Below are positions 3,378 to 21,214 of a DNA stretch of 23,218 nt, one piece after another. A model generated the notes under the pieces. That model saw nothing but the letters and a program-made list of their open reading frames with translations. It did no database searches and was not told the DNA's origin. The DNA is from a virus. The position numbers and the translations under genes were made by a program. The DNA lies in IMG/VR virus record IMGVR_UViG_3300035698_005341, positions 1 through 23,218 of that record. One strand, written 5' to 3'. Within the stretch, counting starts at the first letter, position 1, and every line of letters begins with the position of its first letter.

Positions 3378-4084
3378 ATGAAATACTTATATAATTATAG
3401 TTTATTTGAATCTAGTCTCAGTGGCACAAAAACATTAACTGAAGATGAGTTTCAACATCTTTTAAAAACAAAATGTTCAGATTTTTCTTGGGATGATACA
3501 CCAATTTTCAGATCAGTAAAATTAAAAGAAGAACAATATTATGAAATGGATCCTAACATACCATTTGGTAAATACTATGATCACGATGGTAAAAAATTAA
3601 GAAGATCAGCATACACCAAAAATTATTATAATCTGTTATTGAATCATACACCAGCATTTAGTGATTTTCCAAAAAGGCAAGTAATTTGTTCAACTGTTCC
3701 TACATTTTTTGCTAGTAATATGTTTAGAGTTATTCCATTTAATAATGCAAAAATTGGAATCGTTCCAGATAGCGATATTCAAAATGGTTGGGATTGTGAT
3801 TTCACAAGGAAATATGGTTCTTTTAGTAGTTTTAATAGGGTGTTTCCAGAAGATGTTGAAGATTATAACTGGAAATTTTTTTAGATACTATTGATCCAGA
3901 ACTCAAAGAAAAAGTATTTGTTGATTTCACACCAGAAGCATTAAAATTAAAATGGGTATATTATAATGAATATAAAAAAGATTATATCAAGGTTATTGAT
4001 AGTCGAGGGGGAAAAGACATTTATAAACGACACGAATTGTGGTTAGACTCAAAATATTTATTGGTGTTTTCTCATTCACATTAA
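3378..4084 (+). pseudogene. Frameshifted phage protein, possibly ADP-ribosyltransferase-like
   Basis: The first frame gives 168 aa ending at the TAG at 3882-3884, immediately after a run of seven T. Shifting by -1 at that run continues without a stop for 67 codons (LDTIDPELKEKVFVDF and so on) to TAA at 4082-4084. The natural protein is therefore about 235 aa. The T run could be a programmed slip site, a real inactivating deletion or a sequencing error. The N-terminus MKYLYNYSLFE is the shared leader. IFRS (R45), SAYTKNYYNLL (77-87), FPKRQVICST (97-106) and MFRVIPFNNAKIGI resemble the strand order of R-S-E ADP-ribosyltransferases, and T4 Alt is such an enzyme packaged in the head. That link is tentative because the Glu motif cannot be placed confidently. 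Confidence 0.6.
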
Positions 4085-4161: not shown

Positions 4162-5194
4162 ATGATAATAAGTTATTTTGGTGGTAATTTAATCAAAAAA
4201 TAATCCTAACACTATCATAATTAGCTATTTCGGAGGAAAAAATAAGCAATCGGAGTGGATATACGCTCATGTCACAGAAGAAATGAAAAAAAACACAAAG
4301 ACCTTTACTGAGGTCTTTTCTGGTGCGTTTTGGGTATATGCCAACGAAGACTGGTCGTTTTGTGATAACATTATATACAATGATATGAACTCTTACATAA
4401 CCAACCTGTTTGCGTGTTGTAAAGAGCCTAAGTTTATAGAGTATTTACAAAAACAATATGAGCCAGGAAATCTGTTACATTATGAAAAAGATATAAGCAC
4501 AGACTTGAAAGAAGTGTATGATTACAACTATGCAAAGTTTAAGAAGATTTTCTTAAAGTATAGACAAGAATTATATCATGATACTGATGGACAAGAAATA
4601 AGTATAACACCTACTGACTTTGAAATGGCATTTAAGTATGGTTTTATGTTAAGACATGCATTTTCTGGAATACCTTCTAAAAAGATTGGATATTCTTATT
4701 CAGCATCTTCTTATAAACCTGGTATGAAAAAAGCACCAGAACCAAAATCACAAATCTTATTAAGAAATATTGTTAAAGATAAAGTACAGAATAAATTAGC
4801 AAAAGTGACTGCTTTTGAAAGTTTAGATTTTGAAGAACATATTAAGAAATATGATTCGCCTGAGACTGTGTTTTATATAGATCCACCTTATGCTTTTCAT
4901 GAAGATAATTATTTTCGTGGTGAAGAAAATTTTGGATATGCTGGTCATGCCAGATTGGCAAAAGTCTTATCTAAAATAAAAGGTAAGTTTTTATTATCTT
5001 ATTATGATTTTGATGATTTAAAAGATTTATATCCAAAAGATAAATATCATTGGAAATCTAAAAGTTTTAATAGACCAACAGCCTCTTGTCTCAAAGATGA
5101 TACTAAGGATAAAAAAGGTCATGAGGTTTTAATTCTAAATTATGATTCTGAAAAAAATGATGTTGTGGATAAGGTTGATGATTTTTGGAAATAG
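4162..5194 (+). CDS. dam: D12-class N6-adenine DNA methyltransferase, abnormal 5' end
   Basis: The uninterrupted ATG frame is 4283-5194 (303 aa). It contains motif I as EVFSGAF (residues 10-16) and catalytic motif IV as DPPY (200-203), so it is a Dam/MTase_D12-type enzyme that methylates adenine in DNA. The expected first motif, ISYFGGK, lies upstream in the same frame at 4217-4240, but no ATG precedes it after the stop at 4190-4192. An ATG at 4162 starts the peptide MIISYFGG in another frame and stops at 4201-4203. The two copies of IISYFGG are 52 nt apart and differ by synonymous changes. Joining them would restore a 326-aa enzyme. Possible explanations are ribosomal bypassing, initiation at a non-ATG codon, or a recombination scar with a shortened protein. 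The first ~250 nt also look less AT-rich than the rest. Confidence 0.85.
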
Positions 5195-5314: not shown

Positions 5315-5731
5315 TTATTTATTTAATTCGTAAAATGCTCTAGACATGAACTTGTCTGCATCATATTCCAACCCTTCTAAATCTGTCCAAAGGTCGCTGT
5401 CATCATTTTCAAAATAACTACTTACATAATTATCACCATTAAACATAATTTCTCCTTCATATTCAATATCATTAACCGTTAATTTGCCACTCCAAGAATA
5501 TTGTTTATTTGGTGTTTCAGTATATAAAACGAGTTTTGCTTCATATGGTCCAATTTCATCTATATAGATTTTATGTTCCATTTCCTCTTGAATATTCTTT
5601 CTTTCTTTCTCATTATTGAAATTCTTTAGAAATTTCTTTTCTAAATCAGATAAACTATTCATACCATCACTAGATGCTTTATCTAATATATCATTAAGTG
5701 TTTGGTTTTCAAATGTTTTTAAATGTTTCAT
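5315..5731 (-). CDS. Unknown protein with capsid-targeting-like leader
   Basis: A 138-aa acidic protein. MKHLKTFEN is a clear copy of the shared N-terminal leader. Next comes LNDILDKASSDGMNSLSDLEKKFL, which resembles the short helical motif found at the C-terminus of some Bacteroidetes rhomboid-type proteins ('ILDKI-x-x-x-G-x-x-SL-x-x-EEK-x-FL'). The rest (residues 50-138) looks like a small beta domain (EAKLVLYTET, SGKLTVNDIEYEGEIMF) ending in a helix. The start overlaps the upstream stop as ATGA, which indicates translational coupling. Function unknown. Confidence 0.65.
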   Translation of the reverse strand: MKHLKTFENQTLNDILDKASSDGMNSLSDLEKKFLKNFNNEKERKNIQEEMEHKIYIDEIGPYEAKLVLYTETPNKQYSWSGKLTVNDIEYEGEIMFNGDNYVSSYFENDDSDLWTDLEGLEYDADKFMSRAFYELNK

Positions 5732-6678
5732 GTTATGATATCATATATTTTTCTTCTAGCTTTTCCAGGTTTGAAATCTTTTTTATGTAGAATGTGAGTT
5801 CTTTTGTCTGCTGTGAAATCATTTACTTTTACCCAACCTTTTCTTACATTATCTTCATCTATTTGTATATCAGTATATTGGTAACCTTTTATTTTACATT
5901 CGACTCTTTCGCCATCGTCTTTAACTATTTCATAATCAACGACATACAATATTGGATTTTTTTGTGTGTTGTATTTAATTGCTTGATATTCAAATGATTT
6001 CATGTTTGATTTGGTTTCTAATATAAACTCGTCAAAAGAAAGGTTTTCTCCTCTAAATTTTCCGAGAGCATCTCGCCATTCGATTGGCATATCTTTTGCT
6101 GATTTGGTTGATCCAAACCCACCAGTTTTTAATTTGCCTTGTTTTTTCAAATTTTCTTTTTGTTTCCAATTTAAATTATGCATAATAAATTCTTCTTCTG
6201 AAGGATTAAGGCTATTTACATAATCTTTTATATTGATTACTTCAGATTTTTTATCTGCATTGTCATCTGGGTTCCATCCGCCCACGACTATTTCTATTCT
6301 CCAAGTATCATCAATCTTGAAATATGACATAGTATTTATGTGATCAATTACTCTTTGTAATTCTTCTTTTGATTCTGGATATTCCCAGAATGATATAACT
6401 TTATCTTCCGACCATAATCTTCCAGCATAATCAAAATATTTATATGGTATTTGATCCCAAGAATCGCCAAATAAATCTAATGATATGAGTGGGTGTATAG
6501 AATATTCTCTACCAAGGACAAAATTATCTTTTACTTCGCCTCTGGTGAATTTTTTATCATTCATTTTAAATTTATCCTTTATGATGCCGAATGGTCTTGC
6601 ATTATATGTATTGTAAGTTAAAAATTTATTGTCTATTTCTAATCTGTCTGGGCTTTCATATTTTTTTAAGTATTTCAT
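5728..6678 (-). CDS. Unknown protein with capsid-targeting-like leader
   Basis: A 316-aa protein, leader MKYLKKYES. I recognise no family. The N-terminal half is rich in aromatic residues and predicted strands (residues 50-150, including WRIEIVVGGWNPDD). A Lys-rich central segment follows (KQKENLKKQGKLKTGGFG), then LSFDEFILETK near residues 213-223, which is an internal F-I-L-E step that would suit the prohead protease. The C-terminal ~90 residues are a beta-rich domain ending basic (KPGKARRKIYDIIT). It is tightly packed in the minus operon: 3 nt after the upstream stop and overlapping the next start by 4 nt. No catalytic motif or membrane helix is visible. Confidence 0.65.
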   Translation of the reverse strand: MKYLKKYESPDRLEIDNKFLTYNTYNARPFGIIKDKFKMNDKKFTRGEVKDNFVLGREYSIHPLISLDLFGDSWDQIPYKYFDYAGRLWSEDKVISFWEYPESKEELQRVIDHINTMSYFKIDDTWRIEIVVGGWNPDDNADKKSEVINIKDYVNSLNPSEEEFIMHNLNWKQKENLKKQGKLKTGGFGSTKSAKDMPIEWRDALGKFRGENLSFDEFILETKSNMKSFEYQAIKYNTQKNPILYVVDYEIVKDDGERVECKIKGYQYTDIQIDEDNVRKGWVKVNDFTADKRTHILHKKDFKPGKARRKIYDIIT

Positions 6679-11963: not shown

Positions 11964-12605
11964 ATGTTGATTGAGTGTAAATATTGTGGAAAAATAAAAG
12001 AAAAAAAGAGAGGTAAAAAATGCGTCGATTGTCATAAGAAATATATGCAAGAATATTACCAACAAAATAAAGATATAATAGAAGAAAAAAATAGAAATTA
12101 TTACAAAGAATATTATATAAAGAATAAGGAATTGATTTTGGAAAAAAATAGAAAAGAATATTCAGAAAATAAAGAATATCATTCCAATAGAAAAAGAAAA
12201 GATAGAGAAGAAAATCCAGAAAAATATAGATTGAGAAAAAATGAATATAATGATAATAATCAGCATATTGTAGCTTGGAGAAATTTATTAAAGCATACAA
12301 TTAATTATTATCAAAATAAGAAAAATGATAAAACAGAAAATCTTTTAGGATATGATTTTAATGAACTGAAAACTCATATTACATCATTATTTACACCAGG
12401 TATGAATTGGGAAAATTATGGTGAATGGCATATTGATCATATTAAACCTATTTGTACATTTTCAAAAGAAACTTTACCTTCTGTTGTGAATTCGTTAAAA
12501 AACTTAAGACCTTTGTGGGCAACTACAAGAGAAATAAACGGAATTATTTATGAGGGCAATTTAAATAGAGAAAAATACCCGAAAGGGACAAAAACAAATA
12601 AATAA
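11964..12605 (+). CDS. HNH homing endonuclease
   Basis: A 213-aa protein. The N-terminus has a zinc-ribbon-like CKYC (5-8) and CVDC (20-23). Residues 25-100 are a highly charged Lys/Glu/Asn/Tyr helical linker that probably wraps DNA. The C-terminal catalytic part is HNH: LLGYDFNELKTHITSLF, then EWHIDHIKP (H156, D158, H159) and NSLKNLRPLW-x-x-x-x-x-x-N. This matches free-standing phage HNH endonucleases that nick or cut at a target and spread by homing. It interrupts the run of structural genes between the gp15-like and 428-aa genes. The short sequence CCCGAAAGGGA occurs both just before the gene and in its last codons. Confidence 0.85.
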   Translation: MLIECKYCGKIKEKKRGKKCVDCHKKYMQEYYQQNKDIIEEKNRNYYKEYYIKNKELILEKNRKEYSENKEYHSNRKRKDREENPEKYRLRKNEYNDNNQHIVAWRNLLKHTINYYQNKKNDKTENLLGYDFNELKTHITSLFTPGMNWENYGEWHIDHIKPICTFSKETLPSVVNSLKNLRPLWATTREINGIIYEGNLNREKYPKGTKTNK

Positions 12606-14534: not shown

Positions 14535-14558
14535 ATGGTAAAAAGTGGTATTGTTCGT

Positions 14559-14568
14559 TTAATATATA
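14559..14568 (+). promoter_or_regulatory. Late-promoter-like motif, 5 nt before endonuclease start
   Basis: TTAATATATA ends 5 nt before the ATG at 14574. This is the same short spacing as at 5-14 and, within 1 nt, at 21219-21228, giving a nearly leaderless message if used. Confidence 0.4.
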
Positions 14569-14573
14569 ATTAT

Positions 14574-15476
14574 ATGAGAAAAAGAAAATACACAACAGAA
14601 GAATTTATTGATAAATGTAAAAAAATACATAACAATAAATTTGATTATAGTTTAGTTAAATATATTAATAATATAACAAAAGTGAAAATTATTTGTCCTG
14701 AACATGGTGCTTTTGAACAATGTGCAAAATCTCATATGAGTGGAATTGGTTGTCCCAAGTGTTCAGGTATGTATAATTTTACCACTGAAGATTTTATAAA
14801 GAAAGCAGAACAAATTCATGGTTTTAAATATGATTATAGTTTGGTTGAATATATTAATAATATAACAAAAGTGAAAATTATTTGTCCTACTCATGGTGTT
14901 TTTGAACAATTACCATCTAATCATATAAGGAGAAGTTCAATTTGTCCTAAATGTAATAATGAAAGTAAAGCCTTAACTACTGAACAATTTATAGAAAAAT
15001 CAAAAAAAATACATAATAATAAATATGATTATAGTTTAGTTAAATATAAAAATAATATAACTAAGGTAAGTATTAAATGTAATAAGTGTTGTCGAATATT
15101 TACGCAAACACCAAATTCACATTATATTAAAGGGCAAGGGTGTCCGTTTTGTATTGAAAGTAATGGCGAAAAACAAATAAAAAATATATTAAATGAGAAA
15201 AATATTAAATATATAAGACAAAAGACATTTGAAGATTGTGTGGATAAATATAAATTACGGTTTGATTTTTATTTACCAGATTTCAATACTTGTGTAGAAT
15301 ATGATGGTAAACAACATTATGAGCCAATTGAATATTTCGGTGGTGAAGAAAAATTTCAATTAGTTAAAAAACATGATAATATTAAAAATTTATATTGTAA
15401 TAAAAATAATATTAGAATTATTAGAATTAAATATAATCAAAACATCGAGAAAAAATTAAATAATATTTATGGGTAA
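14574..15476 (+). CDS. Homing endonuclease, DUF723-like repeats plus VSR/PD-(D/E)XK nuclease
   Basis: A 300-aa protein from the preferred start MRKRKYTTEEFIDK; an in-frame ATG at 14535 would add 13 residues that look unrelated. Three tandem ~60-aa DNA-binding repeats follow, each reading FI-x-K-x-x-x-IH-x-x-K-[FY]-DYSLV-x-Y-x-NNITKV, then a Cys-rich HG-x-F or zinc-like finger. The C-terminal part, RFDFYLPDFNTCVEYDGKQHYEP, is the nuclease core of VSR-like homing endonucleases with catalytic Asp and Glu. The first two repeats are almost identical at DNA level, a sign of recent duplication. The gene sits exactly between the gp55-like and gp4-like genes and overlaps the latter by 8 nt, so it looks like a mobile insert. 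Confidence 0.85.
   Translation: MRKRKYTTEEFIDKCKKIHNNKFDYSLVKYINNITKVKIICPEHGAFEQCAKSHMSGIGCPKCSGMYNFTTEDFIKKAEQIHGFKYDYSLVEYINNITKVKIICPTHGVFEQLPSNHIRRSSICPKCNNESKALTTEQFIEKSKKIHNNKYDYSLVKYKNNITKVSIKCNKCCRIFTQTPNSHYIKGQGCPFCIESNGEKQIKNILNEKNIKYIRQKTFEDCVDKYKLRFDFYLPDFNTCVEYDGKQHYEPIEYFGGEEKFQLVKKHDNIKNLYCNKNNIRIIRIKYNQNIEKKLNNIYG
14640..14909 (+). repeat. Two near-identical DNA repeats inside the endonuclease gene
   Basis: About 80 nt at 14640-14720 recur at 14830-14909. Both include an identical run of more than 35 bases encoding INNITKVKIICP, and synonymous positions are conserved too. This is recent internal duplication of the DNA-binding module, or gene conversion between modules. Confidence 0.7.
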
Positions 15477-19459: not shown

Positions 19460-21214
19460 TCAATATACCCATTTAATTTTGCCAGCATCAAAAATTCGAT
19501 ATATTTTGTTTTCTAAACAAATTTCATGTTCAGATTTATTAGAGTTTCCAAAATTTTTAAATAATTGTTTTTTTCTAAAATTAAATTTGTGATATTTTTT
19601 ATCTTTTATGATATATGAATAATCTGGGATTAAATATTTATTAATTTTAAACCCTATCTTATTATATAATTTGCCATATGAATAATCATTTTTTGAAAAT
19701 GAAATAATTTGGTTATAATCATGATTTTTAATAAAATGATTAAATAATTTGGAAGCACCGCCAACAACATTAGTATTTAGTTTGTTACAAAATCTATTTA
19801 ATTCATAATTTTCTTTAATCTTTTTGAAAGTCATTAAGCTTACTAATACATTTTCAAAAAACAGCCCTAATTTCACAGAAGATCCCACAAATCCTTGAAT
19901 ATGATTATCATTTAAAAATGATCTAATTATTTTATTATCAATGATTTCTTTGATTTCTGTTTTTCTAGCAAATATTTTAGATATACTTTTTCCTAATTTA
20001 TTTAGAATCATTGATTTAATAATGTCTTCTCTATATTGCCAATCATCTTCATAAATATGTAATAATTGTATTTCTTTATCTTGACATTTTTTGGTTTTAT
20101 TGTAATGGTAATTTTTTGGTTTATAAATTTCTGAATGCCAATATAGGCCATTAAATTCAAATGCTAAATTAATCTCAGGTAAATAGATATCTAGTTCTTT
20201 ACCATTTAATATTTTTCTATCATTTTCAATAATTTCACCATCATAATTTTCTTTAATGAAATTCAATAATTGAATTTCTAATCCTGATATTTGTTTATCT
20301 ATTGGATTACATTTTGTACATAAACAAGTTTTATATTCTTTTCTTTTATAATAAAGTATAGTGGTTATATCATATGTATTATTACATAATGGGCATCTGA
20401 TAGTCAAAAGTTTGTCTTTATTGTTTATAATAATGATGTTTGTATCATTTTCTAATGTTTTTTTATTGAGAGTGTTATAATTTGAGTTTCTGATTTTATT
20501 TTTTATTTCGTTTGTTTTACTTGGAATTTCGTCACCATATTTCTCTTTATTTGTTTTCTTTATTTTTTCTTGTATTTCTTTATTTAAGAAAACATATTCT
20601 GTGTTCCATTTTTTGAGGTTGTGTGTTTTTAAATCAGATTTAAATTTTTCTGATTTGAAAATATATTCTACACCATTATTTTTTTTGCAAGTGTCTTCTT
20701 TTTTCTTTTTGATTTCTGAATTTTTAGAAATGTTATCTACTTTCCAATTTTTTAAACAAGTTAATTTTTGTTTTTCTTTAATTTTATCATTTTGTGAATG
20801 ATGTCGAACTCCATATTTCTCTAAACAAGTTTTTTCTTTTTTTTCTTTTATTTCTTTTGATTGAGACACATTATTGACCCCATATTTTTTATTTACTGTG
20901 TTTTTAGATTTTTCTTTTGTTTCTTCTAATTGAAAAACATTTTCAACTCCATATTTTTCATTTAGAGTTTTTTTCATTTTGCATTTTCTACACAAGTAAT
21001 CACCATCTTTATAACCATAGGATAAATATAAATTATATTTTATGTTTTTTTTTACACCACAATCATCACACTGTAACGATACGATTGTAGATGAACCTTT
21101 ATTTAATTCATTTACATTTACTTCAATTATATCTCCAACACGAATATCATATTTTTTAAAATATTTGAAGTTGGATGGATTAATTTTCACTTTCACTTTT
21201 TCATTAATAATCAT
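19460..21214 (-). CDS. Large homing endonuclease, KYGV repeats plus PD-(D/E)XK core
   Basis: A 584-aa protein. Residues 45-80 form a zinc ribbon (CDDC, CRKC). Residues 82-245 hold about six degenerate ~26-aa repeats of the form EKYGVENVSQ-x-x-E-x-K-E-K, each a DNA-binding helix unit typical of phage homing enzymes. A second zinc finger (CPLC, CTKC) lies at 274-302. The nuclease core is KELDIYLPEINLAFEFNGLYWHSE with D342 and E353-x-N355, then HIYEDDW. The C-terminal 160 residues (FLNDNHIQGF, VVGGASKLFNHFI, YNKIGFKI) look like an acetyltransferase-type fold often found at the end of this enzyme class. It is inserted opposite to the structural genes, between portal and protease. Confidence 0.85.
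   Translation of the reverse strand: MIINEKVKVKINPSNFKYFKKYDIRVGDIIEVNVNELNKGSSTIVSLQCDDCGVKKNIKYNLYLSYGYKDGDYLCRKCKMKKTLNEKYGVENVFQLEETKEKSKNTVNKKYGVNNVSQSKEIKEKKEKTCLEKYGVRHHSQNDKIKEKQKLTCLKNWKVDNISKNSEIKKKKEDTCKKNNGVEYIFKSEKFKSDLKTHNLKKWNTEYVFLNKEIQEKIKKTNKEKYGDEIPSKTNEIKNKIRNSNYNTLNKKTLENDTNIIIINNKDKLLTIRCPLCNNTYDITTILYYKRKEYKTCLCTKCNPIDKQISGLEIQLLNFIKENYDGEIIENDRKILNGKELDIYLPEINLAFEFNGLYWHSEIYKPKNYHYNKTKKCQDKEIQLLHIYEDDWQYREDIIKSMILNKLGKSISKIFARKTEIKEIIDNKIIRSFLNDNHIQGFVGSSVKLGLFFENVLVSLMTFKKIKENYELNRFCNKLNTNVVGGASKLFNHFIKNHDYNQIISFSKNDYSYGKLYNKIGFKINKYLIPDYSYIIKDKKYHKFNFRKKQLFKNFGNSNKSEHEICLENKIYRIFDAGKIKWVY

Follow-up and report, generated by a model that had tools for sequence, protein, structure and literature searches.

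A duplicated start of an adenine methyltransferase gene in a phage record, probably a recombination scar

Several described systems can be set beside a phage gene whose 5' end occurs twice. According to the account in PMC11194080, ribosomal bypassing in T4 gene 60 involves a stop codon at the take-off site, a take-off stem-loop and a 46-codon ORF1 encoding a nascent peptide whose interaction is needed. The free-standing homing endonuclease genes (HEGs) of T4-like phages, as treated in PMC2988022, occupy intergenic gaps beside the gene that they target and spread through the repair of breaks, during which the flanks are co-converted, and the same source describes autorepression of I-TevI through an operator that resembles its homing site. 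In Torulaspora and Lachancea yeasts, WHO elements are described in which the target of the HEG, the gene next to it, is also present as duplicated pieces, some of them broken (PMC7282813), and nuclease genes have been reported at exchange boundaries in phages (PMC10448857).

Here we analysed a virus record of 23,218 bases (27% G+C, carrying a T4-like portal gene), referred to in its whole length as the window, in which the start of a methyltransferase (MT) gene is found twice. A sequence-only reading had reported MIISYFGG at 4162-4185 and IISYFGG at 4217-4237 in another frame, 52 nt apart, with the first copy ending at a stop and the second lacking an ATG and preceded by ATC (4214), all of which the sequence confirmed. 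Copy 1 reads ATG ATA ATA AGT TAT TTT GGT GGT AAT TTA ATC AAA AAA TAA (MIISYFGGNLIKK and a stop at 4201-4203). Copy 2 reads ATA ATT AGC TAT TTC GGA GGA AAA from 4217, at an inter-frame shift of +1, and its frame is open up to the stop at 5192-5194, giving an MT of 325 codons counted from 4217 that begins IISYFGGKNKQ. The features of the locus are as follows.

4162-4203, plus strand: 13-codon mini-ORF MIISYFGGNLIKK followed by TAA, holding copy 1 (4165-4185).
4188-4216, no strand assigned: filler of 29 nt between the copies, unstructured, matching neither the 3' ends nor the left flanks of HEGs significantly.
4195-4200, plus strand: A6 run within 4193-4200, where both frames are open (the MT frame from 4193); a +1 shift or a one-base length change here would join the ATG of copy 1 to the MT frame.
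4217-4237, plus strand: copy 2 (IISYFGG), the start of the conserved FGGK motif region in the alignment of relatives, with no in-frame ATG, GTG or TTG before it.
4217-4558, plus strand: MT 5' tract with a GC3 of about 0.4, probably from another phage lineage, as judged by a GC3 change-point at codon 114 and by L007-like residues 1-66.
4283-4285, plus strand: earliest standard start of the MT reading frame, which would yield a product of 303 aa without the FGGK motif.
4559-5194, plus strand: body of the D12-class adenine MT including DPPY, with window-typical GC3, L006-like residues and the Dam fold.

Of the 21 nt compared, 5 are not the same in the two copies, and every difference is third-position and synonymous, as the sequence-only reading had said, although its list of the differences omitted ATA/ATT. 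Five randomly placed changes were wholly synonymous in 0.00014 of trials (1.4e-4), and 0.0005 of shuffles gave a nucleotide match with the 200 nt upstream as good as that of copy 2. The pattern TAYTTYGGNGGNAA occurred without mismatch at just two places in the window, the two copies, and with at most one mismatch it gave 4 matches compared to 0.41 expected. Moreover, 17 nt of copy 1 were identical to the true MT starts of two related loci (L167 and L156), and the MT start of another (L169) matched copy 2 at 21 of 22 nt. We read both copies as genuine MT starts of different lineages. Comparison with the locus in related phages showed the duplicated-start arrangement in none of the 80 relatives kept with an alignment (out of 331, some of the 80 ending at contig ends), and no second MT start motif was found among them in the available 600 nt upstream.

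The encoded protein is a D12-class (Dam-like) N6-adenine methyltransferase with a Dam-like predicted fold. It matched PF02086 of Pfam (E 1.2e-15, residues 4-280) and the DNA methyltransferases of PHROG 56 (E 3.5e-37), and the AlphaFold prediction (pLDDT 83.8, pTM 0.83) gave 25 structure matches with E<=0.001, being entries of E. coli Dam, Mcbe1, DpnM and T4Dam; the best PDB matches were E. coli Dam, with DpnM and T4Dam lower in the list. Both the FGGK and the DPPY motif are present, and S3, G6, G7 and K8 as well as D222-P-P-Y225 were invariant in 19 aligned enzymes. Since the 303-aa form begun at 4283 would be without S3, G6, G7 and K8, it is probably not the active form of the enzyme. The frame of copy 2 contains no ATG, GTG or TTG before that position, whereas all 54 relatives checked have a start codon at the start or within 5 codons of it (48 ATG, 6 GTG or TTG).

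The body of the gene is a mosaic. GC3 codons made up 33 of 76 in the 5' part of the MT as compared to 39 of 250 thereafter (Fisher 1.2e-6), and the best change-point, at codon 114 (about 4559), was matched by 0 of 10,000 permutations. The change-point likelihood was 16.3 for the window MT versus a maximum of 7.8 among the 80 relatives, and in each of the 22 other window genes of at least 100 codons the change-point p was at least 0.069. The two closest of the kept relatives, L007 and L006, share 52% and 54% identity, respectively, with the window MT, and 93 residues tell the two apart. Within codons 1-66 the window MT sides with L007 at 15 of 18 such residues, and after codon 66 with L006 at 46 of 75 (permutation p 0.008); codon 66 is the best break of this test itself, and at the GC3 break (codon 114) its p is 0.054. 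A foreign tract of the kind expected from co-conversion is thus found at the insertion point by both GC3 and residue affinity, which together with the synonymous divergence bears out the earlier suggestion that the copies came from different phages. The L006 record (344 kb) has a portal 74% identical to that of the window, and both have a thioredoxin gene upstream of the MT. An MT relative was held by 6 of the 44 portal-bearing records searched. Single-sequence patterns gave no close relatives of the window MT in IMG/VR or GTDB contigs, and no donor sequence was found in these collections or among the kept relatives.

Directly upstream of its MT, L007 carries a LAGLIDADG HEG; the gene at the corresponding place in L006 belongs to no recognised HEG family. 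A search of the LAGLIDADG family, in which 80 of 85 loci were kept, revealed a D12 MT after the LAGLIDADG gene, on the same strand and within about 50 nt, at 28 of the 80 loci (within L151-L174, L218, L219, L226 and L227), several of these being near-identical contigs and hence not 28 independent events. A second HEG family was present at the equivalent place in L062, where a GIY-YIG gene with an I-TevI-type DNA-binding domain (5402-6001) abuts the MT; here the GTG start of the HEG-less locus L042 is replaced, and a GTG within the HEG 3' end takes over. These gene arrangements make the start of the MT a hot spot for HEGs in related phages. L032 retains, at 5912-6012 upstream of its MT, a left motif and the C-terminus of a HEG (TISNSKTKYRKNN), the HEG itself being gone; these remains make L032 a scar that arose independently, by deletion of a LAGLIDADG HEG at an MT start. 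The HEG-plus MTs showed no clear trend of identity decay away from the HEG, and only L156/L029 had a GC3 switch. This switch lies at codon 40 of an MT adjoining a homing endonuclease (0.38 to 0.70, p 0.004 and 0.007).

In 16 of the 28 HEG-plus loci the motif TTYGGAGGRAA, which resembles the FGGK codons of the MT, lies 35-36 nt before the HEG start, and it is possibly an operator mimicking the target. A role as genome-wide promoter was rejected, the motif occurring once or twice per record (13 places in 12 records), and among 47 HEG-less loci checked over up to 1000 nt upstream it was found in two, L032 and L008, in the latter inside another reading frame. The HEG-minus locus L053 and the HEG-plus locus L064 are 94-96% identical on both sides, and the HEG unit replaces a 41-nt leader before the MT ATG. 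This pair places the left YFGGK-like motif in the inserted unit, and the motif was rejected as a fossil of a recipient MT start.

Between 4086 and 4216 of the window no HEG or HEG remnant was recognised. The match of the filler to HEG ends was not above chance (p 0.81 in shuffles, 0.32 against window 29-mers). As a HEG 3' end the filler was rejected, the resemblance of AAAAAATAATnnTAA to L168 not exceeding chance either. Eighteen nt of the filler (window 4188-4216) weakly matched a gene resembling an endonuclease gene, on its reverse strand (L136, 13050-13067), at an E of 0.004, yet another AT-rich part of the query reached 0.001, and this candidate was also set aside. The left copy of the window is not the usual HEG left flank: the flanks of HEG units read ACTTYGGAGGRAA and the window ATTTTGGTGGTAA, and the stub differs from them in having other third positions and its own ATG. 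Of two patterns describing a scar like that of the window, the first had a single match in IMG/VR, in an aminotransferase-like gene, and the second had none; in GTDB contigs 8 matches were obtained, 0 of which fitted the MT profile, and a wider pattern recovered only L253, which is unrelated, and L254, which is the L032 contig again. Elsewhere, the window encodes three more possible nucleases, at 11964-12605 (endonuclease VII-like, PHROG 1035), 14535-15476 (DUF723 and a treble-clef domain) and 19460-21214 (DUF7487).

The explanation that we favour, with moderate confidence, is that the duplication is a recombination scar of two versions of the MT gene, with a HEG as the likely cause of the break. 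The resident phage MT gene would have suffered a break in its YFGG(K) codons or immediately behind them, and another MT gene would have supplied a new 5' end (about 66 to 114 codons and a short leader). The downstream junction would have formed by homologous exchange within the gene and the upstream one by an imprecise join, which would leave the resident start (copy 1, from ATG to GGT-GGT) as a stub ahead of the incoming start (copy 2). This explanation is supported by the two real MT starts, the mosaic gene body, the HEG hot spot in relatives and the L032 scar. We regard a HEG as the likely agent of the break, given that HEGs of related phages have repeatedly landed at the MT start. Since the window contains no HEG and the 29-nt filler could not be traced, we infer the action of a HEG in this lineage. 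Which way the transfer ran and in what order the steps took place are likewise inferences. The recombination or homing origin suggested by the sequence-only reading fits the GC3 switch, the residue mosaic, the hot spot and L032. Several results speak against our explanation: the window scar shows no recognisable HEG or HEG remnant, the residue test gives p 0.054 at the GC3 break, neither a donor nor a second scar like this one came up with the patterns and collections searched, and in the L053/L064 pair the HEG unit takes the place of the leader ahead of the MT ATG and not of codons inside the gene.

The most probable alternative, although we consider it unlikely, is that the A-run at 4195-4200 contains a sequencing or assembly error or has very recently gained or lost one base, in which case the true gene would begin with the ATG at 4162 and continue without a frame break, by way of a 17-codon repeat, into the MT. 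Both frames are indeed open around the A6 run, and the upstream gene (3378-3884) seems to go on in another frame past a T7 run (3869-4084), so that some 320 nt separate two frame breaks that are both linked to homopolymers; this similar break keeps the sequencing explanation alive. In contrast, a one-base error alone explains neither the synonymous divergence nor the GC3 switch, the 17-codon repeat occurs in 0 of the 80 relatives, and outside the tail of the upstream gene a homologous-ORF screen of the window found no frame-split gene. As for the upstream gene itself, the ORF at 3378-3884 is followed by a frame open after the T7 run (3876-3882) through 3869-4084, as a result of either a real frameshift or a sequence error, and the tail at 3869-4084 had no detectable relatives.

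It is also rather improbable that the two starts came together without any HEG, through ordinary illegitimate recombination or through tandem duplication long ago. Such a joining would agree with the lack of a HEG in the window and of a traceable origin for the filler. Against it, the join falls at the position occupied by HEGs of two families in relatives, where a HEG-deletion scar is known as well (L032), and the GC3 switch is not something that tandem duplication predicts.

Programmed recoding maintained to make the enzyme, either by a +1 frameshift at AAA AAA TAA or by re-initiation on ATC-ATA-ATT, appears very unlikely. Although the enzyme frame is intact over 325 codons despite having no standard start, the frames overlap, if only at 4193-4200 around the A6 run, and the mini-ORF stop lies 13 nt ahead of copy 2, the arrangement is shared by none of the 80 relatives and there is no structure near the site. 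To our knowledge, AAA AAA TAA does not contain a slippery sequence of the known programmed +1 type. We give equally little credence to an assembly chimera of the MT genes of two strains, to which a single metagenomic contig without reads and the mixing of two lineages in one gene might point; it needs two joins within about 370 nt, both keeping the downstream protein frame intact, and the two copies have no long exact word in common. Finally, the 52-nt bypass of the T4 gene 60 type that the sequence-only reading had put forward, giving a 326-aa product with the N-terminus MIISYFGGKNKQ, is hardly credible. In its favour, the take-off and landing codons are the same (ATA/ATA, TAT/TAT), and their distance of 52 nt is nearly that of the 50-nt gap in gene 60. 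Against it, there is no stop directly after the proposed take-off codons, no take-off hairpin (z -0.10, for the gap, and +1.05; filler alone 0 kcal/mol), only 5-8 codons translated ahead of take-off and no relative with the arrangement among the 80.

For the scar left by recombination, the most likely present states are a weakly started gene, initiated on the near-cognate ATC, ATA or ATT and perhaps aided by termination of the mini-ORF, or an impaired gene. Fusion of the ATG at 4162 to the enzyme by a one-base error or a +1 frameshift in the A-run is possible.

More generally, we tentatively propose, while rating it below an even chance, that the first codons of Dam-like MTs in large phages are a recurrent homing target, where a specialised LAGLIDADG family replaces the MT leader, carries a YFGGK mimic serving as operator or homology arm, and drives exchange of the MT 5' end. 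The window would then be a remnant with a stub of the old start, a new start without start codon, and an enzyme begun at a near-cognate codon or by frameshift from the stub. The association of LAGLIDADG HEGs with Dam-like MT starts in large phages is apparently undescribed so far; a literature search on this combination yielded no paper about it, its single match concerning, by title and abstract, a restriction enzyme structure. What was suspected to be a ribosomal bypass becomes a probable recombination scar. If the endonuclease cuts the MT start, these loci would offer a clean natural system in which to study how a HEG can edit its neighbour's 5' end while sparing the gene, and also how a phage gene survives loss of its start codon.

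Compared to T4 gene 60, the window is alike in gap length and matching codons and differs in having neither a stop at take-off, a hairpin, a long nascent peptide such as the 46-aa ORF1, nor conservation. The WHO elements, as presented in PMC7282813, share with the window the duplicated fragment of a target gene; however, they involve the 3' end of FBA1 in fragments of about 400 bp, whereas the window is from a phage and holds a short 5'-end stub with no HEG left. With the I-TevI operator the comparison rests with the HEG-plus relatives, in which the FGGK-like motif has an operator-like position and is a putative operator; in contrast, copy 1 of the window is coding-type sequence with its own ATG and not TTYGGAGGRAA. 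Regarding the free-standing HEGs of T4-like phages, the family in our relatives is LAGLIDADG, a term missing from the main text of PMC2988022, and the window itself is without HEG. The free-standing enzymes of that account cleave hundreds or thousands of bp away, whereas here the neighbouring MT start looks like the target. Shared with these phages are HEGs in the gap beside the putative target gene and, in the explanation favoured here, break repair that co-converts the flanking sequence.
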